From NCBI RefSeq assembly GCF_030845175.1, contig NZ_CP132542.1, positions 2,019,501 to 2,083,500 on the forward strand: 64,000 nt of DNA, in the 5' to 3' direction. This document shows, in pieces, positions 3,278 through 40,332 of the stretch (position 1 is its first letter; each line of letters opens with the position of its first letter). The stretch is from Coralliovum pocilloporae. GTDB lineage: Bacteria > Pseudomonadota > Alphaproteobacteria > Rhizobiales > Cohaesibacteraceae. The position numbers were made by a program, and so were the translations under genes. Below the pieces are notes generated by a model, which saw nothing but the letters and a program-made list of their open reading frames with translations, was not told the origin of the DNA and did no database searches.

Positions 3278-3966
3278 TCAATATTCAGCCAGAATAATAG
3301 TCGACGCCACTGAGGCGACGTGATCAAGGCCCGACAGGCGGTCGATGAGCAGAGACAGCTCCTCGGCCGTTCTGACGCTGGCAAGCGCAATCGCGTCCAT
3401 CTGCTCCCCGGACACCGAATAACACCGGTCTATCCCCGCGCATGCCGTGATCGCCGTCAGAACTGGCGCGCAGGGTCGTGTGGAGATCCTGATATGCAGA
3501 ATGGCGCGAGTGTTGTCTGCGGTTTCAGCCAGGCGGGCATGATAGCCCGGGGTCAAGACTCATTGCTCACGTCCATTCTGTTCATCAGGGAAGGACAGAA
3601 TGGACAGAAACAAGAGCGCAGGACAGGTGGACCCTATTCAAGCTGTTGTTTGTGGTCAGGCTGCGCTTCCCTGATGAACCCGACGGGCGGGGTCATTTTA
3701 GCGCCCGGCTTTGTTGGAGATCCTTGAAAACCGGAAGGTTTCCTGCGGACCTCCGTCGCGCCGGACAAAAAAATGACCATCGCAGAATGGACGTGAGCAA
3801 TGAGTCTTGACCCCAGAATCAGACCGTCGGTTTCAAGCCGTCTGATACGATCCTGAACAGCCGGGCGTGACAGATGCACAGCCCGCGCCAGATCAGTGGC
3901 TGAAATCCGGGCATTCATTCTGAGTTGTTCAAGAATCTTCCGGTCAATCCGATCAAGTACGCGCAT
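3278..3966 (-). pseudogene. Lrp/AsnC family transcriptional regulator, disrupted by 264-bp element
   Basis: The N-terminal winged-helix DNA-binding part (residues 1-51, MRVLDRIDRKILEQLRMNAR onward through RIRRLETDGLIL) is encoded from 3966 down to about 3814. The C-terminal RAM/ligand-sensing part resumes at about 3549 with GYHARLAETADNTRAILHI and runs to the stop at 3278. The inverted-repeat element at 3550-3813 sits exactly between them. Joining the flanks restores an Lrp/AsnC protein of about 140 residues of the usual architecture. As it stands, translation from 3966 adds about 60 unrelated residues and stops at 3634, giving a DNA-binding domain without its sensor. The gene is very probably non-functional or dominant-negative. 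Confidence 0.9.
3550..3813. mobile_element. 264-bp MITE-like inverted-repeat element, copy 1
   Basis: A non-coding element bounded by perfect 31-bp terminal inverted repeats that begin GGGTCAAGACTCATTGCTCA and end with the exact complement. It carries an internal 14-bp inverted repeat (GTTCATCAGGGAAG at 3580-3593 with CTTCCCTGATGAAC at 3666-3679) and a further nested stem with GGTCATTTT pairing AAAATGACC. It interrupts an AsnC-type gene. A second copy of identical length is at 39937-40200, differing at 20 positions by my count with no gaps. It encodes no transposase, so it must have moved in trans. The flanking bases here (TG and CG on the minus strand) do not form a clean duplication. Confidence 0.9.
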
Positions 3967-3990
3967 GTGTTCAGGCCCTGGCCAGCTTCT

Positions 3991-4034
3991 TTAAAGCACA
4001 AGACCTTTAACCTGAATCGGCGGCGGTGCTTTAA
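3991..4034. repeat. 44-bp palindromic intergenic repeat, copy A
   Basis: The 9-bp arms TTAAAGCAC and GTGCTTTAA enclose a 26-bp centre. In reverse complement it matches 62784-62827 at 40 of 44 positions, including the shared core GCCGATTCAGGTT. It lies just upstream of the disrupted AsnC gene. The function is unknown; it resembles a dispersed bacterial palindromic repeat. Confidence 0.8.
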
Positions 4035-4184
4035 GAGTTTGTTTCTGCGCGTGCTTCTGAAAAGTCTATCAACTTTTCAGAAGCACGCTGTAATCCCGTC
4101 AGATTGCAGGCCCTTCCGTCACACTGCAGGCATCAGGTTTGTCATATATCCGCAGCAATGACACATAACCTGAGGGAGACGGAT

Positions 4185-4496
4185 ATGAAACTCATTGATC
4201 CGCAGGATTTCACCGGTGACTTTGCCTGGCACGCTCTGGATATTGCCGAGATTGACAATGCAACTGTGCGCCTGCACTGGACCAACGAACCCTATATCTG
4301 GCATGTGAACGACGGGCCAGAGGTCTTTGTGGTTCTGTCCGGCGCTGTCGACATGCATGTGCGGGATGGTGAACAGGAAAGGGTGCTCGCCATGTCGCCC
4401 GGACAGATTTTCCATGCGGAGCCGGGCGATGAACATGTGGCTCATCCCCGGGGAGATGCCCGCATTCTGGTGATTGAACAGGCGGGCAGTCTGTGA
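4185..4496 (+). CDS. Cupin domain protein
   Basis: A 103-residue single-domain cupin (small beta-barrel, usually metal-binding). The two cupin motif regions appear in GPEVFVVLSGAVDMHV (about residues 43-58) and MSPGQIFHAEPGDEHVAHP (about residues 71-89). The ATG at 4185 is chosen because GAGGGAG lies just upstream; an in-frame ATG at 4104 has no ribosome-binding site and adds non-cupin sequence. The substrate cannot be inferred. It stands alone between the AsnC remnant and moaB on the opposite strand. Confidence 0.8.
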   Translation: MKLIDPQDFTGDFAWHALDIAEIDNATVRLHWTNEPYIWHVNDGPEVFVVLSGAVDMHVRDGEQERVLAMSPGQIFHAEPGDEHVAHPRGDARILVIEQAGSL

Positions 4497-4518
4497 GTGG
4501 GACCCTCGGGGTCGAACC

Positions 4519-5082
4519 CTATTTGCCCTGAAGTTTGCCCCGTTTCAGATGCTCATCCAGCCGCGGCATGATTTCGACGAAATTGCACGGAAGGTGCCGG
4601 TAATCGAGCTGCTGGGCGAGGATGCCATCCCAGGCATCCTTGCAGGCTCCTGATGAACCGGGAAGGACAAAGATATAGGTGGCATTGGCCACGCCGCCTG
4701 TGGCGCGGGACTGGACTGTCGAGGTGCCGATTTTCTCATATGAAATCCGGTGGAAGACAGCCGAAAAGCCATCCATCTTTTTCTCGAACAGAGGCTCGAA
4801 GGCTTCCGGGGTGATATCCCGTCCGGTAAAGCCTGTGCCACCTGTGGAAATGATCACATCCACATCGTCCCGGTTGATCCAGAGTTTGGCCTGTGCCTGG
4901 ATCCTGTCCACGTCATCGGTAACGATGGCCCGGTCTGCCAGCACATGACCGGCTTTCTCAAGGCGATCAACCAGTGTCTGGCCGGATTTGTCATCAGCCA
5001 GACCACGTGTGTCCGACACGGTCAGAACCGCAATCTTCAGCGGGATGAACGGGCGCTTTTCTGACGGGTCAATCTTGGACAT
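4519..5082 (-). CDS. moaB: Molybdenum cofactor biosynthesis protein B
   Basis: A 187-residue MoaB/MogA-fold protein of molybdopterin synthesis, a family that binds and adenylylates molybdopterin. The signature segment VIISTGGTGFTGRDITPEA is at about residues 77-95, with upstream PLKIAVLTVSDTRG and downstream NATYIFVLPGSSGACKDAWD, as in MoaB. The start at 5082 has AGGAG just upstream. It is a solitary gene here; no other moa/mog gene is visible in the window. Confidence 0.92.
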   Translation of the reverse strand: MSKIDPSEKRPFIPLKIAVLTVSDTRGLADDKSGQTLVDRLEKAGHVLADRAIVTDDVDRIQAQAKLWINRDDVDVIISTGGTGFTGRDITPEAFEPLFEKKMDGFSAVFHRISYEKIGTSTVQSRATGGVANATYIFVLPGSSGACKDAWDGILAQQLDYRHLPCNFVEIMPRLDEHLKRGKLQGK

Positions 5083-5330
5083 GACATGCTCCTTTGGTGT
5101 CAGCTGACCACAGACCTATCCGCTCTATTGGTCAGAGGCATTGCGTTAAGTCAAGCGGTGGATACAGGAAATGCGGCCTCGGATAGCAGCTCAGCCGAGG
5201 GGATAATCTGTTTCATGGTCAGGGGTAAATTAATTCGATTGCCCGAATGCCCGCGCTCACTCAAACTGGATACTCTTTTAAGCCGGATAAATGTCAGACT
5301 GTCGGGAGGCCTGGCTGTAGGGAGAACTGA

Positions 5331-6944
5331 GTGCAGAACGCGGACTATATCATTGTGGGGGCCGGGTCTGCTGGCTGTGTGCTGGCGGACAAGCTTTCGG
5401 CGGATGGCCGCAACCGTGTGCTGGTCCTGGAGGCCGGCGGTCATGACAGCCGCTTCTTTATCAAGATGCCGATTGGCTACGGACGGATCTTCCATGACCC
5501 GACCCTGAACTGGCGCTATGAAGCCGCCCCCGATGATGGTCTGAACGGACGGGCTGATTATTGGCCGCGTGGCAAGGTTATTGGCGGCTCCAGCTCCATC
5601 AATGCCATGGTCTATTTTCGCGGGCTGCCTGGTGATTTCGATGACTGGCGGGATATGGGCAATACCGGCTGGGGCTGGGAAGACGTTAAACCGGCCTTCG
5701 AGCGGTTTGAGACCTTCACTGATGATGAGGGACATGAAACAGGGTCCGGGCCCCTGCATATTTCAACAGGCGTACGGGACCTGCATCCCATGCGGCATGT
5801 CTTTGCCAGGGCCTGTGGAGAAGCCGGATTACCACAGACAGATCATATGAATGGGGATAACCCGGAGGGCTTTGGCACCTATCAGATCACCACGCGGAAT
5901 GGCATCCGCTGTTCTGCGGCAGATGCGTTTCTGCGTCCGGCTCTGAAGCGCCCCAATGTTGAGCTTATGACCAATGTTCATGTCACCCGAATCCTGTTCG
6001 AGGGCGGCAAAGCTGTCGGTGTGGTGGCCAGGCGAGGCAATGACGAGATTGAGTTTCGGACAGCGGGAGAAGTGATCCTGTCAGGCGGGGCCGTGAACTC
6101 GCCGCAGCTGCTTCAGCTTTCAGGCATCGGCCCCGGATCGCTGTTGCAGCGAATGGGGGTGAAGGTCACCTTTGAAAACGACAATGTGGGTGGAAATCTG
6201 CAGGACCATCTCGGGGTGAGCTATTTTTACCGCTCACGCATCCCGACATTGAACAATCAGCTTGCGCCCTGGTGGGGCAAAATCTGGCACGGCCTGCGTT
6301 ATGTTCTGCTGCGGCGCGGTCCATTGCGTTGCTCGGTGAACCAGAGTGGTGGTTTTGTCCGGTCATCATCGGAGCTCGACAGGCCCGACTTGCAGCTCTA
6401 CATGGCCCCGGTCACCTATAATCGTGATCCGATGTCGGAAAAGCGTCGCCTGATGAACCCCGACCCCTGGCCGGGCTTCCTGATATCATTCCAGCCCTGC
6501 AGACCGACCAGCCGTGGCCGCATCGATCTGGCGTCTCCTGATCCGTTCAGCCAGCCGCTGATTCAAAGCAATTCGCTGTCGACCAATCAGGACATCGAAA
6601 CCGTGGTGGCTGGTGGCCATCTCATGCGACGCCTGTCGGAAACTGACGCCCTCCGTTCGGTCACCGAAAGTGCTTATGATCATAGTCTTGCTTCGATGAG
6701 TGATGAGCAACTGGTCGATGATTTCCGCAATCGCTGCGGAACGATCTTTCACCCGGTCAGCACGTGCCGCATGGGATCGGACGCAGCAACGTCCGTGGTG
6801 GACCCGGGCTTCCGGGTAAGGGGTGTTGAAAGCCTCCGGGTGGTCGATGCATCCACGTTTCCTGCTATCACATCCGGCAATACCAATGCGCCAACCATCA
6901 TGCTGGCGCACAGGGCTGCTGACATAATTCTGAGCGCCCGCTAA
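5331..6944 (+). CDS. GMC family oxidoreductase (choline dehydrogenase-like)
   Basis: A 537-residue FAD-dependent alcohol dehydrogenase/oxidase of the glucose-methanol-choline family. The N-terminal dinucleotide-binding motif GAGSAGCVLA is at about residues 9-18, the second family signature PRGKVIGGSSSINAMVYFRG at about 79-98, and the C-terminal FHPVSTCRMG and NTNAPTIMLAHRAADII contain the catalytic His and FAD-contact region. The start is GTG at 5331 with GGGAGA upstream. No BetB or BetI homologue is adjacent, so choline is not implied; the substrate could be any of several primary alcohols. A RIME-like hairpin begins in the stop codon. Confidence 0.85.
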   Translation: MQNADYIIVGAGSAGCVLADKLSADGRNRVLVLEAGGHDSRFFIKMPIGYGRIFHDPTLNWRYEAAPDDGLNGRADYWPRGKVIGGSSSINAMVYFRGLPGDFDDWRDMGNTGWGWEDVKPAFERFETFTDDEGHETGSGPLHISTGVRDLHPMRHVFARACGEAGLPQTDHMNGDNPEGFGTYQITTRNGIRCSAADAFLRPALKRPNVELMTNVHVTRILFEGGKAVGVVARRGNDEIEFRTAGEVILSGGAVNSPQLLQLSGIGPGSLLQRMGVKVTFENDNVGGNLQDHLGVSYFYRSRIPTLNNQLAPWWGKIWHGLRYVLLRRGPLRCSVNQSGGFVRSSSELDRPDLQLYMAPVTYNRDPMSEKRRLMNPDPWPGFLISFQPCRPTSRGRIDLASPDPFSQPLIQSNSLSTNQDIETVVAGGHLMRRLSETDALRSVTESAYDHSLASMSDEQLVDDFRNRCGTIFHPVSTCRMGSDAATSVVDPGFRVRGVESLRVVDASTFPAITSGNTNAPTIMLAHRAADIILSAR

Positions 6945-6983
6945 AGCATGTTGCGTGAATCCTGTTCAGTGCAACCTGCTCCA
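6943..6983. repeat. RIME-like hairpin after GMC oxidoreductase gene
   Basis: AGCATGTTGC (6945-6954) pairs with GCAACCTGCT (6971-6980) with one mismatch, and the inner TGAA with TTCA. It begins within the stop codon. The arm sequence resembles the short palindromes dispersed in many alphaproteobacterial genomes and may also act as a 3-prime transcript stabiliser. Confidence 0.5.
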
Positions 6984-7092
6984 GGCGGACCCTTTATAAT
7001 CCTGAACTTGGTTCTGTGATGAGCAGAGAAGGTGCCGTCATAATTGGCCTGTTCCTTTGGTATAAGGAACAGCGGGCAACAGGAGAGCGGGC

Positions 7093-7521
7093 ATGGACGA
7101 GCGTATTGCACGAGAGGCCGAAGCTGTAGAATTTGGTCAGTCCCTTTCAGGACTGGGGATCAATCTGGTTGTCTCTGACGTGGAGCGGGCTGCGCAGTTT
7201 TTGCAACAGGTCTTCGATATGACCATTTATCGCAGCGATCGGGATTTCGGAGTTATCGGAACCCATGGCACCGTGTTCCAGCTGCATGCGGATCATACCT
7301 ATTCCAGCAATCCGCTTCTGTCGCTTCTGCCGGAAAACGGGGCCAGAGGAGGTGGGGCTGAATTACGGCTTTACAATATGGACCCGGATCTGTGCGAAAA
7401 GCGCGCTCTGGATCTGGGTTATGTGGTGCTCCGCGGCAGTGAGGACAGGCCACACGGGCTTCGTGAGTGCTTTATCCTTGATCCGGACGGCTATTGCTGG
7501 GTGCCAGGCGCGGCTATCTAG
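7093..7521 (+). CDS. VOC (glyoxalase/bleomycin resistance) family protein
   Basis: A 142-residue protein of the vicinal oxygen chelate fold. The first beta-alpha-beta unit starts at LGINLVVSDVERAAQFLQQV (about residues 21-40) and the second ends in ECFILDPDGYCWVPG, the usual end of the fold. VOC proteins include glyoxalase I, dioxygenases and antibiotic-binding proteins; nothing here selects among them. Start ATG at 7093 follows GGAGAG. It is a single gene, convergent with ompW across a terminator. Confidence 0.75.
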   Translation: MDERIAREAEAVEFGQSLSGLGINLVVSDVERAAQFLQQVFDMTIYRSDRDFGVIGTHGTVFQLHADHTYSSNPLLSLLPENGARGGGAELRLYNMDPDLCEKRALDLGYVVLRGSEDRPHGLRECFILDPDGYCWVPGAAI

Positions 7522-7543
7522 ATTTGAACCCTGGATAAAACAA

Positions 7544-7571
7544 AACCGGGCTGCGTTGTCGCAACCCGGTT
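7544..7571 (-). terminator. Intrinsic terminator for ompW
   Basis: AACCGGG (7544-7550) pairs with CCCGGTT (7565-7571), with an inner TGCG/CGCA extension. On the minus strand it is followed by TTTTGTTTT, which suits termination of ompW transcription; the plus strand lacks a T-tract. Confidence 0.75.
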
Positions 7572-7597
7572 CAAGAACAGTTCTGGCGTAAGACGCT

Positions 7598-8236
7598 TTA
7601 GAAGCGATAGCCGAAGCCTGCGCCGATGATCCACGGATCAATATCCACGTCAGCCTGGATCGCACCGTTGATGGTGACATCTGTTTCCAGAAAGATTTTC
7701 TTGACGTCCACGTTGAACAGCCAGTTGTTGCCAAGATCGACATCAATGCCAGCCTGCAGAGCCCAGCCGAAAGCGTCGTCATAATCGATGCTGGTGGCAA
7801 CCCCATCAGGATCTTCGTTGAAGAAGATCGTGTAGTTGATACCGGCACCCACATAGGGACGGAACTTCTCGTTCGGCAGGAAGTGATACTGCAGTGTCAG
7901 GGTCGGTGGCAGCAGCCAGACATCGCCGAGGCGACCAACGACAGTTGAAGACACATCATGCGGCGTGGTTGCAAGAATAAGCTCTGCCGCGATGTGATCG
8001 GTGAAGAAATAAGTGATATCCAGTTCCGGAACAAAGGTATTGTCGATATCGACGCCACCGCCGATCGTTCCGACCTTTGCGCCTTCATCTGGAACAACGA
8101 AGATACCGCGAACGCGAACCTGCCACGGGCTGTCGCCTTCTGCAGCCTGGGTTGCATCAGAAAATGTTGTCGCTGCGAATACCAGTCCGGTGAGCAGTGT
8201 GCAGGCTTTCAAAGCCTGTTTGATTTTTGCCGTCAT
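7598..8236 (-). CDS. ompW: OmpW family outer membrane protein
   Basis: A 212-residue small beta-barrel porin of the OmpW family, which forms an eight-stranded channel for hydrophobic molecules in the outer membrane. There is a Sec signal peptide (about residues 1-31, ending SDATQAA), then WQVRVRGIFVVPDEGAKVG, the family motif PPTLTLQYHFLPNEKFRPYVGAGINYT (positions 102-128 approx.), and a C-terminal phenylalanine (GAGFGYRF) typical of outer membrane barrels. The ATG at 8236 is chosen because it begins the signal peptide. The upstream region contains a perfect Fnr-type box at 8322-8335, consistent with the oxygen regulation known for ompW in enterics. Confidence 0.9.
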   Translation of the reverse strand: MTAKIKQALKACTLLTGLVFAATTFSDATQAAEGDSPWQVRVRGIFVVPDEGAKVGTIGGGVDIDNTFVPELDITYFFTDHIAAELILATTPHDVSSTVVGRLGDVWLLPPTLTLQYHFLPNEKFRPYVGAGINYTIFFNEDPDGVATSIDYDDAFGWALQAGIDVDLGNNWLFNVDVKKIFLETDVTINGAIQADVDIDPWIIGAGFGYRF

Positions 8237-8244
8237 AAGCCTAA

Positions 8245-8261
8245 CCCTATAATTTATAGGG
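8245..8261. promoter_or_regulatory. 17-bp perfect palindrome in ompW leader
   Basis: CCCTATAATTTATAGGG has 8-bp perfect arms around one central base and lies 9 bp upstream of the ompW start. Its location fits an operator or a leader hairpin near the transcription start. The binding protein is unknown. Confidence 0.5.
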
Positions 8262-8321
8262 GAAAATCCGTATGCTCTGATTTGCCCCGCTGCAAACTGA
8301 CTCCAACAGCAGTGAATGGGT

Positions 8322-8335
8322 TTGATTTGAATCAA
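8322..8335. promoter_or_regulatory. Fnr/FixK-type binding site
   Basis: TTGATTTGAATCAA matches the Fnr/FixK consensus TTGAT-N4-ATCAA exactly. It lies about 86 bp upstream of the ompW start and 154 bp upstream of the divergent EamA gene, so ompW is the likelier target. The regulator gene is not in the window. Confidence 0.8.
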
Positions 8336-8488
8336 AGATCTGGGAAAAGTTGTAAAAGGTGCAAAAATGCCGCAGATGACCCGGCTTCCAGAGCACCTAT
8401 CCGCATTATTGCTTGCCTGGGTCGCCATATCGCGTTAGCGCGGTAAGAGTGGAAAACAGTCAATGGTGTCGTGGAAGGTGCCCGGTTA

Positions 8489-9379
8489 ATGTCCAGTTCC
8501 CCCTTGAAAGCAGCGGCATGGATGATGGGTGCTCTGACATCCTTTCTGGCCATGGCGATTTCGGGGCGGGAACTGTCATCGGACCTGACCACGTTTCAGA
8601 TTCTGTTCTGGCGTAGTCTCTCGGGCCTTCTTGTTTTAAGCCTGCTGCTGAGTGTGATCGGATGGCAGCGCATAGCCACCAGGAGACTGACATTCCACGG
8701 GGTGCGAAATGTCATTCATTTCGGTGGTCAGTATGGCTGGTTCCTCGGTTTGAGTCTTTTGCCGCTGGCGGATGTGATCGCGATTGAATTCACGACGCCG
8801 GTCTGGTCTGCGCTGCTGGCCATGCTGCTTCTGGGCGAACAGCTCACAAGGGCACGCATGCTGGCAATCGGATTGGGTTTCCTGGGCATTCTGGTGATTT
8901 TGCGACCGGGTGTCGAGGTTCTCAGTGCTCCGGCTCTCATCGTCCTGGGCGCGGCGATCTGTTACGCGGCGACCTATATCAACACCAAGATTCTGGCAAA
9001 GACCGAATCCGTTATCGCCATTCTCTTCTATATGTGTCTGATCCAGCTCCCCATCGGGGCTGTCCCCACCCTGTTGAACTGGGTGACGCCGTCATCATCC
9101 ATGCTGTTCTGGATTCTGGTGGTGGGCTGCAGCGGATTGTCCGCCCATTACTGCCTGACCAGAGCGCTGTCTCTGGCGGATGCAACGATTGTCGTGCCGA
9201 TGGATTTCATGCGGCTGCCGCTGATCAGTCTTGTGGGGTTCTGGTTCTATCAGGAGGGCATTGACCTCTGGCTCCTGTTTGGAGCGGGCCTGATTGCCTT
9301 CGGGACCCTGATTTCCCTGAGGGCAGAACGGCACAGGAATCGCCAGCTTGAAGGGCTGAAAGAAGAAGGCCGCCCGTAG
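8489..9379 (+). CDS. EamA (DMT superfamily) transporter 1
   Basis: A 296-residue inner-membrane protein with ten predicted hydrophobic segments arranged as two EamA repeats (about residues 7-137 and 148-280). Characteristic segments are YGWFLGLSLLPLADVIAIEF and TTPVWSALLAMLLLGEQLTR in the first repeat and RALSLADATIVVPMDFMRLP in the second. Such proteins export metabolites, amino acids or drugs; the substrate here is unknown. ATG 8489 with AAGGTG upstream is preferred over the GTG at 8471. It is one of four EamA genes in this window. Confidence 0.85.
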   Translation: MSSSPLKAAAWMMGALTSFLAMAISGRELSSDLTTFQILFWRSLSGLLVLSLLLSVIGWQRIATRRLTFHGVRNVIHFGGQYGWFLGLSLLPLADVIAIEFTTPVWSALLAMLLLGEQLTRARMLAIGLGFLGILVILRPGVEVLSAPALIVLGAAICYAATYINTKILAKTESVIAILFYMCLIQLPIGAVPTLLNWVTPSSSMLFWILVVGCSGLSAHYCLTRALSLADATIVVPMDFMRLPLISLVGFWFYQEGIDLWLLFGAGLIAFGTLISLRAERHRNRQLEGLKEEGRP

Positions 9380-9406
9380 GCGGCCAACAACAGAGCTTTT
9401 TTCAGT
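9369..9406 (+). terminator. Hairpin at the end of EamA transporter 1
   Basis: GGCCGCC (9369-9375) and GGCGGCC (9380-9386) form a 7-bp stem that includes the stop codon in its loop, and six Ts follow 14 bases later. The spacing to the T-tract is longer than usual, so terminator activity is uncertain. Confidence 0.4.
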
Positions 9407-9414
9407 TCACCGGT

Positions 9415-10743
9415 TTAGCTGTTTTGCGGTCCAACCGTGGTGACCAGAATATCTGATCCGAACACACGCTTGGCAGCCCGTTTGACATCCTCAATCGTGA
9501 TCGCCTCGATCAGACTGTTGCGCTGGTCGATATAGTCGATGCCGAGATCCTCGATCTGGATGCCCAGCAACTGGCGGGCAATCTTTGAGGAGCTGTCAAA
9601 GCGCAGAGGATAGGAGCCGATAAGGAATTTCTTGGCCTTTTCCAGCTCTTCCTCGGTCGGACCTTCTGCTGCCATGCGATCGATTTCAGCACGCACCACA
9701 TCAATGGCCTGTTGAGCCTGATCGGCGCTGGTGCCGAGACCGCCAAAATAAAGGGCTGTGTGATCATAGGGCAGCAGGGTCGTGAAAACGGAGTAGACCA
9801 GTCCGCGTTTCTCCCGCACTTCATTGTAGAGCCGGGACGTGAAACTGCCACCGCCGAGAATATGATTGGCCACATGAGCGGCCAGATAGTCCGGGTCCTT
9901 GCGCTTCAGACCCTTGCCGCCGAACTGAATGGTAGTCTGCGGCACATCCAGGGTGCTGGTGATCAGGCCCGCTTCAAGTTTCGGCTGCACCTGATCCACA
10001 CTTGTAACCTGCCCTTCAGCAGGAAGGGACACGAACAGGGTGTCGAGAACCTCTTTCAGTTCTTCAGCTGAAATCGCACCGACAACCGAAACGGTCAGAT
10101 GATCACGGGTGAAAACCCGCTTGTGAAAATCAACAAGATCGTCTCTGGTGATTGCAGTAACGCTGTCTTCTGTACCTTTGGACGGACGCCCATAGGGATG
10201 ATCTGGAAACGCCGTCTGGAACCAGCTTCTTGATGCGATGGCATCAGGGTTTTTGAGATCAGAGCGAATGCCGGAAATGATCTGCGCCCGGATGCGGTCG
10301 ACCGCATCCTGATCGAACCGCGGTGATGTCAGGGCCTGGTTCACCAAAGCCAGTGATTCGTCCTGATTCTGTTTCAGCAAACGGACCGTGCCGTAGAACC
10401 AGCCCCGTCCGACGGAATAGGACATTTTAAGGGCCTGTTCCTGCATCTGCTGCTGAAAATCCCGGGCAATGGTCTCACCGGACCCCTCGTCAATCAGCGC
10501 CGTTGTAAGATTGGCAAGACCTTCGCGGCCTGCCGGATCATGAGCGCTGCCGCCACGAAAGGCGAAATTGATCGCAACGATGGGAACTGAATGCTCTTCA
10601 ACCAGCCAGGCTTTGATACCAGACGCGCTTGTCACTTCCTGAATGTCGGCTGCCTGTGCCATTCTCGGCATCATCAGAACAACCAGCAGCACAATCGCGA
10701 GTGTGAAATGCGTGAAATGACGGTGGATCATGTGATCAGACAT
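9415..10743 (-). CDS. M16 family peptidase-like protein lacking the zinc motif
   Basis: A 442-residue insulinase-family (M16) protein with an N-terminal signal peptide (hydrophobic segment ending MAQA). Where active members have HxxEH, this one reads RGGSAHDPAGREGLANLTTA, without the zinc ligands. It is therefore predicted to be the non-catalytic partner of a heterodimeric periplasmic protease, with the upstream gene giving the catalytic half. The C-terminal half contains the usual GGGSFTSRLYNEVREKRGLVYS segment. I take the ATG at 10743, which overlaps the previous gene by 8 bp and implies translational coupling; a GTG nine bases upstream is possible. Confidence 0.88.
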   Translation of the reverse strand: MSDHMIHRHFTHFTLAIVLLVVLMMPRMAQAADIQEVTSASGIKAWLVEEHSVPIVAINFAFRGGSAHDPAGREGLANLTTALIDEGSGETIARDFQQQMQEQALKMSYSVGRGWFYGTVRLLKQNQDESLALVNQALTSPRFDQDAVDRIRAQIISGIRSDLKNPDAIASRSWFQTAFPDHPYGRPSKGTEDSVTAITRDDLVDFHKRVFTRDHLTVSVVGAISAEELKEVLDTLFVSLPAEGQVTSVDQVQPKLEAGLITSTLDVPQTTIQFGGKGLKRKDPDYLAAHVANHILGGGSFTSRLYNEVREKRGLVYSVFTTLLPYDHTALYFGGLGTSADQAQQAIDVVRAEIDRMAAEGPTEEELEKAKKFLIGSYPLRFDSSSKIARQLLGIQIEDLGIDYIDQRNSLIEAITIEDVKRAAKRVFGSDILVTTVGPQNS

Positions 10744-12899: not shown

Positions 12900-13006
12900 T
12901 TGAGACATTCGGTGGAATGTCTGTTAAACGAGGTCCGGGCGCAGCGCCCGGTTTACGAATTCAGGCAGCGTCTGCTGCCGAAAGGCAACGATAAGGACTG
13001 TACGCG

Positions 13007-14734: not shown

Positions 14735-14744
14735 GGAGGGCGAT

Positions 14745-15224: not shown

Positions 15225-15248
15225 GATTGAACATCCCGAAACGCTTAG

Positions 15249-30031: not shown

Positions 30032-30097
30032 ACGGGGCATATAATGCCCAACATGGATTGAAGAATATCAGCGAAAAAACGCGGTCGGGAGAGATAA

Positions 30098-31189: not shown

Positions 31190-31192
31190 ACA

Positions 31193-32314: not shown

Positions 32315-32337
32315 AGGCCGGGGCTGAACAGTTAGGT

Positions 32338-33351: not shown

Positions 33352-33460
33352 TCCGTATTTATTCCGCCTTCGCAAGTGGCACGTCTTGACGATATGGAAA
33401 ACTTCTGTCACGCCTTCGACAGTGACATTCATCGATATCCATCCGGACTCTGAGGCATCT

Positions 33461-34447
33461 ATGTCGAGCGCACGGCATGCGTTTTCCGTAATTCGATCTC
33501 TTGACGCGTTTCCTGCACATCTGCGGGGCGGAGTGGTGGCTATCGGCAATTTCGATGGTGTCCATCGGGGACATCAGGCGGTTCTGGAAGAAGCCAAGGC
33601 GCTGGCCAGGGCTGGCAATGTGCCGGCGATCATGATGACCTTTGATCCGCATCCAAGAACAGTGTTTCGCCCCGACAACCCGGTTTTCCGACTGACGGAT
33701 GAGGCCGGAAAAGCCCGGCTTGCCGAAGCTCTGGGGCTTGATGGTATTCTGAGTTTGCAGTTCACGCGCTCCTTTGCTGACCAGAGTGCGGATTCCTTTA
33801 TCGAGACCATCCTCATTAAGACGCTCGGCGTTCGCCATGTGGTGACGGGATATGATTTCCATTTTGGTCACAAGCGTCAGGGGACCCCGGACTATCTCAA
33901 GGAAAAGGCGTCCGAACACGGCTTTGGTGTGCTGATCGTCGATATGAAATCCGATCGCAGCGGTGATGCTGTCTCATCATCCCGTATCCGTGCGGCCCTG
34001 AAGGACGGGGATATAGCCGGGGCCAATCGCCTGCTCGGTTACAGTTATTTCGTCGAAGGTCCGATTATCCATGGTGAAAAGCGCGGGCGCAATCTGGGGT
34101 TCCCGACGGCGAACATGGCACTGGCCGAAAACAGTGAACTCCGGTGCGGCGTCTATGCCGTGACCATGACACGGGCTGACGGAACAGAATTTCACGGTGC
34201 CGCCAGTTTTGGCCGACGCCCCACATTCGACAATGGTGCGCCGCTGCTTGAAACCCATGTCTTCGATTTCTCTGAAAGCCTTTATGACGAAGTGGTCAGG
34301 ATTGCTTTCCATGGCTGGCTCAGAGGTGAGGAGAAATTCGCCTCCGTTGATGATCTGGTCGCACAGATGAAAGACGATTGCGAGAAAGCCCGGGTCCTGC
34401 TGTCACAGCGGGACATTCAACCTCTGGACCGGGTGCTGGCGGGATGA
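33461..34447 (+). CDS. ribF: Bifunctional riboflavin kinase / FAD synthetase
   Basis: A 328-residue enzyme converting riboflavin to FMN and FAD. The N-terminal adenylyltransferase has IGNFDGVHRGHQAVL (about 26-40) and VTGYDFHFGHKRQG; the C-terminal flavokinase domain has GEKRGRNLGFPTANM (about 206-220). ATG 33461 has GAGG nine bases upstream and begins the conserved part, so the earlier in-frame codons are dismissed. It overlaps the next gene by 4 bp (ATGA). In many alphaproteobacteria ribF precedes ileS; here it does not. Confidence 0.94.
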   Translation: MSSARHAFSVIRSLDAFPAHLRGGVVAIGNFDGVHRGHQAVLEEAKALARAGNVPAIMMTFDPHPRTVFRPDNPVFRLTDEAGKARLAEALGLDGILSLQFTRSFADQSADSFIETILIKTLGVRHVVTGYDFHFGHKRQGTPDYLKEKASEHGFGVLIVDMKSDRSGDAVSSSRIRAALKDGDIAGANRLLGYSYFVEGPIIHGEKRGRNLGFPTANMALAENSELRCGVYAVTMTRADGTEFHGAASFGRRPTFDNGAPLLETHVFDFSESLYDEVVRIAFHGWLRGEEKFASVDDLVAQMKDDCEKARVLLSQRDIQPLDRVLAG

Positions 34448-35385
34448 GCGCCCCGGATCAGACTGCCTCGTCAAATCCCATGGTCGGCATCGGGCTGATG
34501 GCCGCGGCCATGGCTGTTATTCCTCTGATGGATGTTTTCGCCAAGCTGCTCAGCAGTGATCATGGTGCGATCCAGATTGGCCTGGGGCGCTTTATTGGTC
34601 AGGCTGTCATGGCACTGGTCGTTATGGCACTGCTGCGGCAGAAAACAGCCTGGCTGCCGACACGGCTTTCGCTGCATTTCTGGCGCGGAGCCCTGCTGGC
34701 GATAGCAACCCTGTTTTTCTTTGCAGCCCTGAAAACAATGCCGATTGCCAATGCGCTGGCGATTTTCTTTGTGGAACCGATGATTCTGACGGCACTGTCG
34801 GCTGTTCTGCTGAAAGAGCAGGTTGGTCCTCGACGCGTGATCGCGGTGGTCGTCGGTTTCGGTGGTGCTCTGCTGGTGATTAAGCCAAGCTGGTCTGTTT
34901 TCGGTCCAGCGGCCCTGTTGCCGCTTGTTACAGCGACAGCATTTGCGGGTTATCTGCTGCTGACCCGGATTCTGAGCGGTACTGGAAATGTCTGGTCCCA
35001 GCATCTTGCTACCGGGTTGTCAGGCTCATTGATCCTGGGTCTGGCTTTGATCGTAGCGACGGTCTTCGGGTTCGAAGAGGTGGCCGCAAAGGCAATCTCG
35101 TCCACACAATGGGCTTACTATATCGGCCTTGCTCTCGTCGGGGCTGGCGCGCATTCCCTTATCGTGCTTGCCTTCGCAAGGGCTCCAGCTGCAACACTCG
35201 CACCGCTGACCTATCTTGAAATCGTCTCGGCAACGGTCCTTGGTTATCTGGTCTTCGCAGATTTTCCTGACGCACTGACCTGGCTTGGTATTGTCATCAT
35301 TGTCGGCAGCGGGCTTTACATCATGCACCGTGAGCGTATTCGGCAAAGCCCGATTGCAGGTCGCAGGCGTCCGGTCAAGCGATAG
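34444..35385 (+). CDS. EamA (DMT superfamily) transporter 3
   Basis: A 313-residue inner-membrane protein with two EamA repeats (e.g. LKTMPIANALAIFFVEPMIL in the first and HSLIVLAFARAPAATLAPLT in the second). Its ATG overlaps the ribF stop, so it is translationally coupled to flavin-cofactor synthesis. Whether it carries a flavin or a precursor is an open inference from this coupling. Confidence 0.85.
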   Translation: MSAPDQTASSNPMVGIGLMAAAMAVIPLMDVFAKLLSSDHGAIQIGLGRFIGQAVMALVVMALLRQKTAWLPTRLSLHFWRGALLAIATLFFFAALKTMPIANALAIFFVEPMILTALSAVLLKEQVGPRRVIAVVVGFGGALLVIKPSWSVFGPAALLPLVTATAFAGYLLLTRILSGTGNVWSQHLATGLSGSLILGLALIVATVFGFEEVAAKAISSTQWAYYIGLALVGAGAHSLIVLAFARAPAATLAPLTYLEIVSATVLGYLVFADFPDALTWLGIVIIVGSGLYIMHRERIRQSPIAGRRRPVKR

Positions 35386-35398
35386 GCCGAGATGTATC

Positions 35399-35824
35399 TT
35401 AAGCCTCCGGTCGGCGTGGGACAGAGACAATCGCCTCGCCATCAAGAACCAGTCTGTCACCCACATAGGTTTCGCATTTGAGGAAAATCCGTCGGCCCTT
35501 GTCCTGCTTTTCCACAACTTCGACCCGTGCCAGCAGTTCATCACCCAGATAAACCGGCGCACGGAAGTGCAGAGTCTGATCCAGATAAACCGCGCCAGGG
35601 CCGGGCATCTTGGTTCCGATAATAGTTGAATACAGGCTGGCCGACAGAAAACCATGGGCTATGCGTTTCTTGAAAATTGTCTCTGCTGCATAGTCGTCAT
35701 CAAAATGCACCGGGTTCATGTCACCGGACAGCTCACCGAAACTCTGCACATCTTCATCTGTAACAAGCTTGGTGACTTCATCGTGCATACCAGGCTGCAG
35801 ATCTTCATAATAATGCGGCTGCAT
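35399..35824 (-). CDS. MaoC-like hot-dog dehydratase
   Basis: A 141-residue single hot-dog-domain protein of the MaoC/(R)-specific enoyl-CoA hydratase type. The hydratase motif with its catalytic Asp and His appears in FGELSGDMNPVHFDDDYA and the following IAHGFLSASLYSTIIGTKMP. ATG 35824 with GGGAGA upstream is preferred over the in-frame ATG at 35911. It may link beta-oxidation to hydroxyacyl-CoA formation; no PHA synthase is in the window. It is convergent with the EamA gene. Confidence 0.85.
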   Translation of the reverse strand: MQPHYYEDLQPGMHDEVTKLVTDEDVQSFGELSGDMNPVHFDDDYAAETIFKKRIAHGFLSASLYSTIIGTKMPGPGAVYLDQTLHFRAPVYLGDELLARVEVVEKQDKGRRIFLKCETYVGDRLVLDGEAIVSVPRRPEA

Positions 35825-36171
35825 GGCCGTTTCTCCCAAGTGACCAATCCCCGGAATAGCCCGGATTTTCGCCGAGCTTATGGGCGCTCTTGAGGCCCGC
35901 CAATGGGTCATTTGGATAAGAGTAATTCGGATAATACGACTACAGAAAAAATATGGTTTCCAAAGCTTTACTAATTGGTTTCATAGAAAATTAACGAGGA
36001 TTCCAAGTAACGGGTACCCAAGTTAACCTCCTTTTTAAGACCTCGCGTTAGATTGGCTGTAGGAAACGGGGAGGTCGGCGATAAGCCACCTGTTCTCCTG
36101 GAGCGCGTAAAGCGCGAGGCGTAAATGGCCCCTTTGGGGTTGGGGTAGCTGAAAGTGTATGGAGTAAACTG

Positions 36172-36555
36172 ATGGCCCTTGATATGAACATGCCGGTCTT
36201 GGTGGTGGATGACTACAAGACCATGATCCGTATCATCAAAAACCTGCTGAAGCAGCTTGGTTTTTCTGATGTGGACGATGCCGCAGACGGAACCGAAGCG
36301 TTCCAGAAGATGAAAGACCGTAAATATGGTCTGGTCATCTCTGACTGGAACATGGAGCCGATGACTGGCTATGAGCTTCTGAAACATGTCCGTTCCGATG
36401 AGCACCTGAACAAGACACCGTTCATCATGGTGACCGCGGAATCCAAGACGGAAAACGTGATCGCTGCCAAGAAGGCAGGCGTGAACAACTATATCGTTAA
36501 GCCGTTCAACGCCCAGACGCTGAAAGCGAAGATCGACGCGGTCTTCGGCGAATAA
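36172..36555 (+). CDS. cheY: CheY-type response regulator
   Basis: A 127-residue single-domain receiver. The acidic pocket D13/D14, phospho-acceptor D58 (VISDWNMEP), T88 (MVTAE) and K110 (IVKPF) are all present. The sequence NMEPMTGYELLKHVRSDEHL and the adjacent CheZ gene indicate a flagellar-motor-binding CheY. No cheA, cheB or cheR genes are in the window, so the kinase lies elsewhere. It is preceded by a long gap (35825-36171) with a GC-rich hairpin region but no other gene. Confidence 0.9.
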   Translation: MALDMNMPVLVVDDYKTMIRIIKNLLKQLGFSDVDDAADGTEAFQKMKDRKYGLVISDWNMEPMTGYELLKHVRSDEHLNKTPFIMVTAESKTENVIAAKKAGVNNYIVKPFNAQTLKAKIDAVFGE

Positions 36556-36697
36556 GCGTCTTCTCCGGCCATCAAGGCGGCCAGATTGGCCGCCTAACGG
36601 CGGGATACGGATTTCAGGTTGCGTGTGGGGATACGCGCCGGAAAAACGGGGAATAAAAAGGGCGGCAACAAAGAATTGCAGCCCAATGGGGAATGTC

Positions 36698-37387
36698 ATG
36701 TCTCATTATATCTCTACGGAGAATGTCGACAGCATCGTATCCTTTCTCGAAAGGGATCGTGCGGGTGATGTCTCTCTCAATGATGTCATTCAACTCGCCG
36801 AAGTGATGGCAGGATCGCTTCATTCCTATTTTGAATCGCTGGATATCTCTCTCTACGAAGAGTTCAAGGGTATTGCTGACGAGATTTCCGTTATGAAGAC
36901 GGAAGTGGCAAACCTGAGGCCGTCGGACATGCGGGAGAACCGGATTCCGGAAGCCGGGCGCGAACTTGATGCGGTTGTCAATGCCACTGAGCAGGCAACA
37001 GAAACCATCATGGCCGCAGCCGAAGACATCATGGCGACAGAGGCAACGGATCTCGAGAGCTACCAGGCTCATGTCAATGACAAGATGATCGAGGTCTTTG
37101 AAGCCTGCAGTTTCCAGGACATCACCGGGCAGCGTATTTCCAAAGTGGTTGAGACCATCAATCACATTGATGAGCGGATCTCCAACTTCATCGACCGCCT
37201 CAAGGTGGCAGAAGTTGCTGATGCGGAGGTTGAGGAAACCGAAGAGGAACGCCGCCGCCGCGAGTTGATCTTGCACGGTCCGCAGCATGCGGGCGAAGGG
37301 GTTGCGCAAGATGATGTTGATCAGCTTTTTGATGCGGTCGAGGCTGACGGTGTCGATCAGGACGAGATTGACAAACTCTTCGGCTGA
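36698..37387 (+). CDS. cheZ: CheZ-like CheY-P phosphatase
   Basis: A 229-residue helical protein of the CheZ family, which removes the phosphate of CheY-P. The signature CSFQDITGQRISKVVETI is at about residues 137-154, with the catalytic-type Gln 145 in DITGQ and the acidic Asp 141. The C-terminus DVDQLFDAVEADGVDQDEID ending in DKLFG resembles the CheY-binding tail. GGGGA lies upstream of ATG 36698, which I prefer to the earlier in-frame codons. It follows cheY by 142 bp. Confidence 0.85.
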   Translation: MSHYISTENVDSIVSFLERDRAGDVSLNDVIQLAEVMAGSLHSYFESLDISLYEEFKGIADEISVMKTEVANLRPSDMRENRIPEAGRELDAVVNATEQATETIMAAAEDIMATEATDLESYQAHVNDKMIEVFEACSFQDITGQRISKVVETINHIDERISNFIDRLKVAEVADAEVEETEEERRRRELILHGPQHAGEGVAQDDVDQLFDAVEADGVDQDEIDKLFG

Positions 37388-37411
37388 TATCCGCTGACAC
37401 AATTTCAGTTT

Positions 37412-37446
37412 GAACCCGCCCGAGGCTTTACCGCCCGGGCGGGTTC
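37412..37446 (+). terminator. Hairpin after cheZ
   Basis: GAACCCGCCCG (37412-37422) pairs perfectly with CGGGCGGGTTC (37436-37446), 11 bp, around a 13-base loop. No T-tract follows, so it may act with Rho or stabilise the cheYZ transcript. Confidence 0.55.
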
Positions 37447-37635
37447 CTGCTTTGGGATCTCAGTTTTTGGCTCAAATTGGGCGTAATTGGTTTGAAATGT
37501 GGTGGCCGAGGGTGCGTTTCCGGATGTATGTGCGATTTTACCCAAATTATTGAGGTAATATCGCGGAATGCCCTTGTTTTGGACTTATACCGTTTCTAAA
37601 AGCCGTGGAGAGGATCCGGTGAAGAGGGGCGGTTG

Positions 37636-38787
37636 ATGGATCTGAATCAGACGGTTGATTCACTGTATGAAACCATTGTTGAACAAAATGGGTTGCAGGG
37701 TGTAACCGGGATTTTGGCTCGGGCCATGCCTGGTTCCGCTGTCGCAATGCAGCTCTACGACGCTCGTACCAACCAGTGCCATGGTGTCGCGGAAACAGGC
37801 TTTGATCCTGGCAGCCGGGAAGCCTATTTCGAGCATTATGCGCCTCTCAACCCATGGGCCAGAGTCTTCGTTCAGGGGAAACCTGATCAGGTTCTTCGTG
37901 CGGAAGAAACGGTTGCAAGGGAAGATCTGCTCTCTGGTGAATATTACAATGACTGGCTAAGGCCTCAGGGAGATTTGTCTCTGGCGCTCGGATTGGTTCT
38001 CAATAGGTGGGATACGCAGCGTCTGATTCTGACCACTCGCCTTGGTGAGGGGCAGGATGATGTACTGGCAAGCTGCTCGCAGACCCTGCATCAGCTTATG
38101 CCTCACCTCAACCGGGTCAGTCAGATTGAAGCCCTGTTGTCAGAGAGCCGTGACGCGCGGGCCTTCATGAAAGCAGGTTTCCAGTCTATGCGCGGTTGCG
38201 CGGTTCTGGTTAATGGAAGCGGCCGCGTCATTGCTGCCAGCATGGCTGCTGAAGAACTGTTCGAACGCAGAACGCTGTTCAGAATCAATATGAACAACAA
38301 TCTCGCCGGAGCCAGCCTGTCCATTGACGGGACCTTTCGCTCCCTGCTGGGTGATCTGGCACAGCTTGACGACATTACCGGCCCGATTGTCGTGCGTGAT
38401 GAAAACCGCAACGCAGCGGCAGCTCTGATCACCATTCCGGTTCACCCGGATTATGACGGTGTCAAGGGTGCCTTGCTCAGAGGTGCCACGGATCGTCACC
38501 AGCCGGCCAAGCTGGTGGTGGTGATTGAACCGGATCAGCTGGCTCTTCCTTCGCTGGACCTTCTGAAAGCCTTTTTTGATCTCTCCACATGCGAAGCCCA
38601 GCTTGCCCTCGCGGTCAGTGAAGGGGTGACCCTGTCGGATTATGCCAGGAAGAAAGATCTGTCCCGCAATACAGTGCGCAATCATCTGGCTAATATTTTC
38701 ACAAAGACCGGGGTCAACAGACAGGTTGATCTGGTCCGGATGCTTGGCGCATTGGGAGAAGCCCAGTCCAGTCAGGACCAGCTCTAA
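37636..38787 (+). CDS. LuxR-type (GerE HTH) transcriptional regulator
   Basis: A 383-residue protein. The C-terminal 60 residues form a LuxR/GerE helix-turn-helix (CEAQLALAVSEGVTLSDYAR then LSRNTVRNHLANIFTKTGVN). The N-terminal 300 residues look like GAF/PAS-type sensory folds but I cannot name the domain. The ATG at 37636 follows GGGGCGG. It stands alone between the chemotaxis pair and the convergent uracil-DNA glycosylase. The signal it senses is unknown. Confidence 0.8.
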   Translation: MDLNQTVDSLYETIVEQNGLQGVTGILARAMPGSAVAMQLYDARTNQCHGVAETGFDPGSREAYFEHYAPLNPWARVFVQGKPDQVLRAEETVAREDLLSGEYYNDWLRPQGDLSLALGLVLNRWDTQRLILTTRLGEGQDDVLASCSQTLHQLMPHLNRVSQIEALLSESRDARAFMKAGFQSMRGCAVLVNGSGRVIAASMAAEELFERRTLFRINMNNNLAGASLSIDGTFRSLLGDLAQLDDITGPIVVRDENRNAAAALITIPVHPDYDGVKGALLRGATDRHQPAKLVVVIEPDQLALPSLDLLKAFFDLSTCEAQLALAVSEGVTLSDYARKKDLSRNTVRNHLANIFTKTGVNRQVDLVRMLGALGEAQSSQDQL

Positions 38788-38812
38788 ATCTGGAATGCCA
38801 TTCTATTCAACC

Positions 38813-39712
38813 CTATGAAAGGGCCTGTTTGATGGCCAGGAAGTCTTTCCAGGATAGCCGTTTTTCGAGTGGCTGACGCAGCAGGTAGGCTGGATGATAG
38901 GTGGCTATGGCCTTGATCTTACGATTGGGCAGTTCATAAGGCATCCATCGCCCGCGCAGTTTGCGGATACCATCACTGGTGCCGAGAAGGGCCTTAGAGG
39001 ATGCCGCACCGAGAAACACCAGAACATCCGGATTGACCAGTTCGATCTGCCGCTGGATGAATGGCTTGCAGGTTTCGGTCTCTTCCGGCGTCGGTGTCCG
39101 GTTTCCGGGCGGTCGCCAGTAGAGAACGTTGGCGATATAGACAGACTGCCTGTCGAGTTCGATGGCCTGAAGCATCCGGTTCAGCAATTGGCCGGAGCGC
39201 CCGATAAAGGGCAGGCCCTGCATATCCTCATCCCGACCGGGGGCTTCTCCGACAAACATCAGCCGGGCATTCGGGCTGCCATCCGAGAAGACGGTGTTTT
39301 TCGCCGTGCGTTTCAGATTACAGCCGTCGAAAGCCTGAACAGCTTCATGCAGGGCCTCAAGGCTGGTGGCAGATGCTGCCAGATTGCGAGCGGATTGCAC
39401 CACATCGGCGGAGCCGGGAATGACTGGCTGCGGCATATGGCGTGCAGGTGCGTCTGGTTCCGGAGACCGCTCCCGGGGGGCTCCTGGTGCATGAGAAGGG
39501 GCGGCCTGTGCCTGCCTTGCAGCTTGAGGTGCAGTCGGAGCCCGGCGTGCGGCTTTTGCCTGGGCTTGTGCTTTTGCCTGAATTTCTGTTTCTGCGAACC
39601 GGTCCTGCGGGGTGTCCTCCAGAACCCAGTCCACGCCCATATCCGCATGCCAGCGGAGGGCTTCTATCAGCGCAGCGCGCGTCTGTCCGGAGGTGGGTGA
39701 GGAAGATGTCAT
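38813..39712 (-). CDS. Uracil-DNA glycosylase, family 4
   Basis: A 299-residue UDG that excises uracil from DNA. The catalytic core is in the C-terminal 200 residues: GEAPGRDEDMQGLPFIGRSG (active-site motif A), NVLYWRPPGNRTPTPEE, and motif B YHPAYLLRQPLEKR. Cysteines in AFDGCNLKRTAKN and EETETCKPFIQRQ fit the family 4Fe-4S cluster. The N-terminal 100 residues are a low-complexity Ala/Gln/Pro-rich linker, common in alphaproteobacterial members. ATG 39712 is chosen. Confidence 0.93.
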   Translation of the reverse strand: MTSSSPTSGQTRAALIEALRWHADMGVDWVLEDTPQDRFAETEIQAKAQAQAKAARRAPTAPQAARQAQAAPSHAPGAPRERSPEPDAPARHMPQPVIPGSADVVQSARNLAASATSLEALHEAVQAFDGCNLKRTAKNTVFSDGSPNARLMFVGEAPGRDEDMQGLPFIGRSGQLLNRMLQAIELDRQSVYIANVLYWRPPGNRTPTPEETETCKPFIQRQIELVNPDVLVFLGAASSKALLGTSDGIRKLRGRWMPYELPNRKIKAIATYHPAYLLRQPLEKRLSWKDFLAIKQALS

Positions 39713-40332
39713 GACGGCATTATATACAGGAAACACGCATGTGCGTCTGGTTTAATCGACAAAATCGAATGCCACAAACATGTCGTTACGACAAGATGCT
39801 GATGAGCTGGCTGCATGGTCCATAATTGGGTCCATAATTTGTATGAAATCTGCTCAAAATGGCGAAAAAGGACAAGAGACGCGCGCTCTTGGCATTGCCG
39901 GAGGCATTCTGATCCCTTAAGAAACCTGTTGGCTTAGGGTCAAGACTCATTGCTCACGCCTACTCTGTTTATCAGGGAAGAGCAGAATGGACACAAACAA
40001 AAGCGCAGGACAGGTGGATCCTATTCAAGCTGTTGTTTGTGGTCAGGCTGCGCTTCCCTGATAAACCCAAAGGGCGGGGTCATTTTACCGCCCGGCTTTG
40101 TTGGAGGCCCTTGAAAACCAGAAGGTTTCCTGCGGACCTCCGCCGCGCCGGACGAAAAAATGACCATCGCAGAATGGATGTGAGCAATGAGTTTTGACCC
40201 TAGGAAAATGGGCGACTGCCGCCGGAACAGATTGCCCGCCTGAAGAATAAATAGGCAATAAACGGGTTTTGAAAGCGTGACATATGCTGGTTAACCGGAA
40301 CCGGTCGGGACGTCACGCTGTGGGAGAAACAG
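39713..40332. other. Divergent intergenic region carrying the second 264-bp element
   Basis: This 620-bp gap between udg and etfQO holds the MITE-like element at 39937-40200. The bases before it (39713-39936) and after it (40201-40332) show no gene; the latter must hold the etfQO promoter, though I see no clear boxes. Confidence 0.7.
39937..40200. mobile_element. 264-bp MITE-like inverted-repeat element, copy 2
   Basis: Same length as copy 1 (3550-3813), about 92 percent identical by my count and gap-free. Both ends have TA immediately outside the GGGTC/GACCC termini, which fits a TA target duplication as made by IS630/Tc1-mariner-type transposases. The internal 14-bp stem reads GTTTATCAGGGAAG (39967-39980) with CTTCCCTGATAAAC (40053-40066), so the base pair that differs from copy 1 has changed on both arms. 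Confidence 0.88.

Follow-up and report, generated by a model that had tools for sequence, protein, structure and literature searches.

A 264-bp element of Coralliovum pocilloporae whose fold seems to be preserved across a divergent family

We analysed a window of 64,000 nucleotides from the genome of Coralliovum pocilloporae (Alphaproteobacteria, Rhizobiales, Cohaesibacteraceae; assembly GCF_030845175.1, contig NZ_CP132542.1, positions 2,019,501 to 2,083,500), in which an earlier note had pointed out a 14-bp inverted repeat occurring twice. This repeat is only part of one internal stem of a larger element, of which the window contains two 264-bp copies beginning with GGGTC and ending with GACCC. 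One of them (copy 1) is located within an Lrp/AsnC-type gene. Comparison with related elements suggests that what the family preserves is the fold.

The element and its two copies in the window

The 14-bp inverted repeats had been placed correctly by the earlier note and are exact, both in copy 1 (GTTCATCAGGGAAG, 3580-3593, with CTTCCCTGATGAAC, 3666-3679) and in copy 2 (GTTTATCAGGGAAG, 39967-39980, with CTTCCCTGATAAAC, 40053-40066). The nested stem that it described, GGTCATTTT with AAAATGACC, is also present in both copies, with arms starting at 3691 and 3770, and at 40078 and 40157. The folding energy of copy 1 is -150.8 kcal/mol, compared with -87.5 kcal/mol for shuffled sequences (z = -11.8), and the fold of copy 2 has a z of -12.5; in each case 0 of 200 shuffles were as good. 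The predicted structure is composed of four stems: (i) the terminal stem P1 (~30 bp), which corresponds to the terminal inverted repeats (TIRs), (ii) the long hairpin P2, which contains the 14-bp repeat, (iii) the mini-hairpin P3, which reads CCC-TTCG-GGG in some elements of the family, and (iv) the long hairpin P4, which contains the GGTCATTTT/AAAATGACC stem. The positions of these features are presented in Table 1.

Removal of 264 + 2 bp from the gene split by copy 1 yields a single Lrp/AsnC frame of 140 aa, and no such frame is obtained when 0, 1, 3 or 4 extra bases are taken out instead of 2. The inserted unit is therefore 264 bp, accompanied by a 2-bp duplication. A Rickettsia palindromic element, which inserts in frame so that the host protein is kept, was ruled out because copy 1 interrupts the frame.

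Table 1. Features of the two element copies and of the gene interrupted by copy 1 (positions are those of the window; R1 is the covariance model described in the text)
Feature	Position	Strand	Basis
C-terminal part of Lrp/AsnC-type gene split by copy 1	3278..3547	-	AsnC_trans_reg match
Copy 1 of the 264-bp element (GGGTC...GACCC), within Lrp/AsnC-type gene	3550..3813	+	R1 match 3677-3784, 96.6 bits
Copy 1, P1 left arm = left TIR (partner 3784-3813)	3550..3579		Single-strand fold; family covariation
Copy 1, hairpin P2 (3580-3617 with 3642-3679; tip 3621-3639), contains 14-bp repeat	3580..3679		Fold; covariation
Copy 1, mini-hairpin P3	3680..3686		Fold; helix 6 of whole-element alignment
Copy 1, hairpin P4 (3687-3699 with 3770-3783; 3703-3723 with 3747-3766)	3687..3783		Fold; R1 model; covariation
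Copy 1, P4 tip, motif CTTGAAAACC..GGTTTCCTGC	3726-3743
Copy 1, P1 right arm = right TIR	3784..3813		Single-strand fold
N-terminal part of the same Lrp/AsnC-type gene	3814..3966	-	HTH_AsnC-type match
Copy 2 of the element; TA on each side (39935-39936, 40201-40202)	39937..40200	+	R1 match 40064-40171, 97.4 bits
Copy 2, hairpin P2, 14-bp repeat with base pair in T-A version	39967..40066		Fold
Copy 2, hairpin P4	40074..40170		Fold; R1 model

Decay of resident copies and covariation across the family

The genome of C. pocilloporae (3.92 Mb, a single contig) contains 18 full-length copies of 263-265 bp, identified by pairing of end matches, and five further copies that belong to two diverged subfamilies with other ends. 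The earlier note had concluded from the two copies of the window that both arms of one base pair of P2 changed together. This was not confirmed by the alignment of all 18 copies, in which the pair is C-G in 12, T.G in five and T-A only in copy 2 of the window. The left-arm T is common to six copies and is still faced by G in five of them; the right-arm A is private to the one copy, and its chance of meeting a T by random dealing is 6/18. In the internal stems (70 pairs) the number of both-arm Watson-Crick changes was one, with an expectation of 0.45 (p=0.41), and in the terminal stem P1 (29 pairs) it was four, with an expectation of 0.59 (p=0.002). Single-copy changes occur at an equal rate in paired and unpaired alignment positions (50 per 192 and 19 per 76, respectively). 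The 50 changes at paired positions produced 9 Watson-Crick pairs, 14 G.U, 13 A.C and 14 other mismatches; stem positions therefore change independently, 41 of the 50 leaving a wobble or a mismatch, which is the pattern that the earlier note itself had set against its claim. The resident copies decay freely, with no sign of selection for pairing. This calls for caution: a single compensating pair, observed between two copies, has no value as evidence, whereas the family does.

A DNA search of 150 genomes (C. pocilloporae and its relatives) gave matches at E<=0.001 in 11 of them, this genome included. Pattern scans of named genomes returned no match for the end sequence of the element and 109 stretches for the P4 tip, of which 80 were examined; the P4-tip stretches are derived mostly from Hyphomicrobiales or its genera (Stappia, Roseibium, Nitratireductor, Hongsoonwoonella, Anderseniella and others). 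A stretch labelled Christensenellaceae (L147) has no palindrome at its tip match. The tip matches are often placed on short metagenome contigs, several of them near a contig end (L114, L130, L136 and others), so such repeats may break assemblies. In total, 66 distinct elements were cut out of the loci provided by the DNA search, the tip scan and one further set (identical copies were removed uncounted), and 24 further tip matches lack an adequate palindrome. The length of 63 of the 66 elements is 260-265 bp, although the search admitted approximately 150-360 bp. The ends vary widely between elements, yet the two ends of one element agree with each other. When 64 relatives were aligned with 23 elements of this genome, identity fell to 35%, with a median of 50%. 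Invariance of the P4 tip (helix 9) is uninformative, since the 80 stretches were fetched by that tip. The strict P2 tip motif, GCAGG..CAAG, is present in 21 of 23 elements of this genome, compared with 6/66 and 3/18 elsewhere.

Covariation was analysed with a test modelled on R-scape, in which substitutions, mapped by parsimony on a tree, are re-dealt among columns, and pairs are scored by the G statistic with average-product correction. In the set type2 (25 sequences, <=90% identity) this analysis revealed 11 significant pairs out of 33,670. All 11 belong to the alignment-based fold, and 10 also to a fold predicted from a single sequence; six are located in P1, four in P2 and one in P4. With 44 sequences of type2, all nine significant pairs lie in the fold. 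The set type1, which is narrow, gave two significant pairs at n=37, both in P1.

Column pairing was consistent with these results. For P4 (36 sequences, structure taken from the same alignment), 89.1% of cells are paired, compared with 69.4% after shuffling and at most 49.1% when the structure is slid, and both-side changes affect 209 cells versus 69.3 shuffled and at most 52 slid. For P2 (23 sequences, one of which alone provided the structure), 85.7% of cells are paired versus 68.8% shuffled, with both-side changes in 121 cells versus 34.7 shuffled and at most 54 slid. Over the whole element (23 sequences, whose alignment also supplied the structure), both-side changes are seen in 80 of 100 pairs, 90.5% of cells are paired versus 72.0% shuffled, and both-side changes number 418 versus 127 shuffled. 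Every helix that varies shows compensating changes.

Imperfect pairs are divided between G.U and A.C in ratios of 28:30 and 80:68 in two covariation sets, and 62:53 in 46 more distant elements, the latter being a different count made on single folds. As G.U is not more common than A.C, no RNA of one particular strand is indicated; the ratio fits pairing of DNA, or of RNA in either orientation. Comparison with Rfam at gathering scores gave no match over the element (tRNA and narK matches lie outside the elements), and relaxed scores added only matches far below the gathering scores. No description of the element was found in a literature search, in which most subscription papers were out of reach. 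GANTC is absent from 43 of the 66 elements and is not enriched outside the copies of this genome; a role as a CcrM site was rejected.

The family was followed beyond the order with R1, a covariance model of P3 and P4 alone, whose E-values are rough. Since P1 and P2 are not part of this model, their presence in its hits tests the fold. In a sample of 385 genomes from the class, R1 matched 21 at E<=0.001: C. pocilloporae itself and 20 genomes that all lie outside this order and represent 20 different families. A sample of 398 genomes from the phylum contained 48 with a match, namely this genome, 3 more of the order, 12 of the class and 32 of other classes. A core-motif search placed few of the 28 distant loci (26 without result), and the coordinates of the model were used. 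An outer stem is present where expected in 18 of 27 class loci, with a total length of 252-270 bp (no shuffled control). The phylum hits provided 40 stretches, 38 of them scorable, and the outer stem was identified in 29, of which 26 are 250-275 bp long; the cut-off was 14.0, the maximum of 114 shuffled-flank controls (mean 6.7). Outside the class, 22 of 30 hits have the outer stem. The 21 elements measured there (L364, 248 bp, was omitted though its outer stem passed) include 15 of 263-269 bp; these lengths are untrimmed, trimming at an internal TA lowering the length counts. The ends of the elements outside the class are quite different (GGGCCTGTT.., GAGCCTGTCTC.., GTGTCC..), their identity to copy 1 of the window is 30-41%, and the P4 tip [C/T]TTGAA-hairpin-TCCTGC is kept in 6 of the 21. 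R1 also matches P2 on the opposite strand, in 6/28 and 9/29 loci. P2 therefore resembles an inverted P4, and the element a near two-fold palindrome centred on P3, a likeness that is drawn from model hits only, as the strict P2 tip motif is rare elsewhere.

Plasmid records were searched with several elements. L336 matched four from Vibrio, of which only that of Vibrio campbellii lies inside the element (69.5% over 73% of the query), the other three being in the flank. L342 partially matched two plasmids of Azotobacter chroococcum and one of Pseudomonas aeruginosa, L352 matched one Aeromonas record in the flank only, and L101 gave three matches. No match was obtained with the window element in plasmid records, with L101 in phage records, or with L336 in E. 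coli.

Target sites, derivatives and candidate helper transposases

Fourteen of the 18 full-length copies are flanked by TA on both sides, in the form YTA..TAR. Of the remaining four, three have a single-base deviation in one of the two flanks, and copy 1 of the window is flanked by CG and CA. Judged by its sequence features, the element is a miniature inverted-repeat transposable element (MITE): it is short, multi-copy and devoid of genes, with TIRs of ~30 bp, a TA target and, at one gene, a 2-bp duplication.

Shorter derivatives were also observed on the chromosome (G000:C1). Three fragments of ~90 bp (67.6 kb, 746.4 kb and 3140.5 kb; L021-L023) end at one internal GACCC|TA (GATCC in one), and two of ~125 bp (1349954 and 3273945) begin at TA|GGGTCATTTT. 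These sub-elements sit at TA sites (in one case a single side has TG), as though sequences inside the element that resemble its end had served as new ends. Remnants of ~23 bp (GGGTCAAGACTCATTGCTGACCC and near versions; 2617425, 2974904 and 3759097) are the expected product of a deletion between the TGAC repeats of both ends. At L046 (G000:C1:1349945-1351040), a gene of ~0.9 kb is flanked by two element-derived fragments, one of which is a 53-bp mini-palindrome between TA sites.

In relatives we identified insertion sequences (ISs) with a two-frame transposase, DUF4096 followed by DDE_Tnp_1, whose second frame is above the cut-off of NCBIfam transpos_IS5_3; we take such two-frame IS5_3 elements to be the IS427 group. 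A transposase of this type (E<=1e-10) is encoded in 28 of the 47 other genomes with end matches. An end pair at the right distance (839-865 bp), usually flanked by TA, is present in 15 of the 25 IS loci of relatives. Nine IS loci (G009, two in G076, G098, two in G059, G049, G133 and G101) have GG(G/C)TCAGGAC-type ends, as do many MITEs, with single-base departures in some of the nine. G009 contains one IS and one MITE, both with GGCTCAGGAC. In G002, of the same family as C. pocilloporae, one IS end, GGGTCAAAACTCATTG (GGGTCAAAACTCATTGAT), agrees at all of 16 bases with several MITE ends of the genome under study, which are also matched by IS ends of G008 (15/16 bases) and G003 (14/16). The IS end GGCCGTAAACTCATAAA of G013 is that of the MITE L089. 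The IS ends of G060 and G099 match no MITE seen; those of G033 and G144 are 1.65 and 1.1 kb apart, respectively; only one end was found in G025, G056, G044, G070 and G097, and none in G078, G016 and G030. One comparison in this pairing of TIRs holds partly by construction, the elements having been chosen by palindrome score. Since IS5_3 ends in relatives match several MITE end types, a helper acting in trans is likely, and the element is most likely a MITE of IS5-type helpers. An IS630/Tc1-mariner helper, prompted by the TA target, was rejected: this genome has no DDE_3 (PF13358) gene, and the ISs found with matching ends, in a comparison that covered IS5_3 loci, are of the IS5_3 type.

Five IS5-type copies of the genome under study (G000:C1 402535, 1156477, 1220579, 2176511 and 2788539; L260-L264) are equal in every reported score and have the TIR GGTTCAATCGACATTCAG; no MITE with such ends was seen. 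In the IS5 copy L241 (G059:C1:2496800-2497800), an internal deletion has joined the two frames of the transposase in a single, shorter one.

Interpretation and comparison with known systems

We give about even chances to the following explanation: the element is a non-autonomous transposon with a TA (YTAR) target and an IS5-type helper, and its fold is selected during propagation, acting as single-stranded DNA of either strand. IS5-type transposases would recognise the TIRs and move the element to TA (YTAR) sites. As the resident copies are free to decay, the propagating lineage must be the level at which selection acts; the fold would thus be maintained while the element propagates and not while it is resident. 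It may form in single-stranded DNA of either strand, e.g. at a replication fork, where P2-P3-P4 could bring the ends together and P1 would provide a double-stranded terminal repeat, bindable by the transposase. The suggestion of the earlier note that the folded form matters, and not only the ends, is supported for the mobile lineage, in which internal stems covary across subfamilies and orders and distant relatives keep length and architecture. It is not supported for resident copies, which show no excess of internal covariation and change independently.

Several observations weigh against this explanation. The set type1 at 90% identity (n=12) has a sole significant pair, which lies outside the fold; another covariation run, in which 8/8 pairs were in the fold, had the same type1 outlier. 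A good outer stem is missing from 9 of 27 class loci (four with little flank on one side or in a contig-end region) and from 9 of 38 phylum hits, some for want of flank. The IS5_3-type transposase was not found at E<=1e-10 in 19 of the 47 other genomes with end matches, and 10 of the 25 IS loci of relatives have no end pair at the right distance. No TIR-matched transposase was found in the genome of C. pocilloporae, whose five IS5 copies have different ends; its elements thus appear to be stranded. Genes of the IS630 type (DDE_3, PF13358) are present in 57 of 150 relatives, and the comparison of ends covered IS5_3 loci. Finally, the ends on which IS5 transposases act are believed to be double-stranded, and a need for the internal fold is therefore unproven.

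Concerted changes might also be produced by mutation, if one arm of the long palindrome were copied onto the other by gene conversion or template switching and the arms were kept alike in this way, so that pairs only seem to co-change. Wobble cells without strand preference are what such a DNA process would give, and both-arm changes in single copies (terminal stem) and the near-palindromic form of the element, with P2 like an inverted P4, point the same way. We nevertheless regard it as unlikely: resident copies have their excess in P1, where 200 bp separate the two arms, while P2 and P4, with arms lying close together, show none; most single-copy changes at paired positions stay uncorrected; and homogenising leaves the nearly constant total length unexplained. 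It is very improbable that the element is an ordinary MITE with an unconstrained interior, which merely inherited its fold from a palindromic ancestor. Many MITEs are near-palindromic and the resident copies decay freely, as this would predict, but inherited pairs would break at a median identity of 50%, and it is disfavoured both by the significant pairs of the R-scape-like test and by the analyses of P4, P2 and the whole element, with their excess of paired cells and both-side changes.

There is a small chance that the fold works as RNA, with read-through transcripts of either orientation being processed, protected or terminated so that insertions do less harm. The fold is very stable and similar on both strands, P3 has the CCC-TTCG-GGG form in some elements, and the stem-loop RNA of NEMIS in Neisseria is a proposed RNase III substrate, according to PMC2229807. 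On the other side stand the lack of any sign of selection in resident copies, the lack of an Rfam match over the element, and the three sets in which G.U is not above A.C, although the last disfavours one fixed strand and not the use of either. A domesticated repeat, regulating genes or organising the chromosome of its host, would be in keeping with the many end matches in some genomes and with the conserved P4 tip motif (conserved partly by construction). The patchy distribution in both the DNA and the model searches, the copy that breaks a gene and the neutral decay, which makes host use of resident copies unlikely, leave this very little room.

A broader proposal, possible though doubtful, is that the family represents a phylum-wide and very old lineage of mobile DNA, the identity of which would reside in a length of 264 bp and a fold of four stems with paired inverted tip hairpins, and not in a sequence or gene. 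Such a lineage would swap end sequences to use different IS5-type helpers while keeping its folded body, and would move by way of, or owe its maintenance to, a folded single strand, whichever its polarity. MITEs are usually regarded as IS leftovers with a freely drifting interior; in this family both the length and the fold of the interior persist between classes despite the low identity, and with ends matching different candidate helpers. This raises the question whether folding of DNA or RNA has a role in the life of a transposon whose presumed transposase cuts double strands; the family offers natural variants with which the role of the fold may be tested.

REPINs are shorter than the element, lack TIRs and a TA duplication and depend on the RAYT Y1 transposase; REPs are of the GTAG type, unlike the GG...CC ends with TA described here. 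The TIRs of the element, unlike REPINs, match IS5_3 elements. What REPINs and the element have in common is that two hairpins, in inverted orientation, are spread together as a miniature mobile element (PMC3116915). The other systems considered are described in PMC2229807, on the accessible part of which the following comparisons are based. CIR of Caulobacter, the nearest in shape, is likewise a repeat of Alphaproteobacteria, in which a linker joins two arms and the fold is conserved. It is ~110 bp long, with a conserved GANTC and without a 5'-3' terminal stem, whereas the element has 264 bp and a long terminal stem; identity with CIR was rejected on size, terminal stem and GANTC. Correia/NEMIS elements share TA ends and TIRs and have a structured transcript, but they occur as 107- and 155-bp forms, are listed for Neisseria, and no four-stem interior is mentioned for them in that part of the source. 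RUP is a MITE mobilised in trans by IS630-Spn1 (PMC2229807). Like RUP, the element is small and without a gene, with TIRs common to autonomous ISs, TA ends and a stable stem-loop fold. It differs in its candidate helper, which is IS5_3 and not IS630, in its length (264 bp versus ~100-200 bp for RUP-type elements), and in an interior fold that is held by compensating changes over wide divergence at a nearly constant length.

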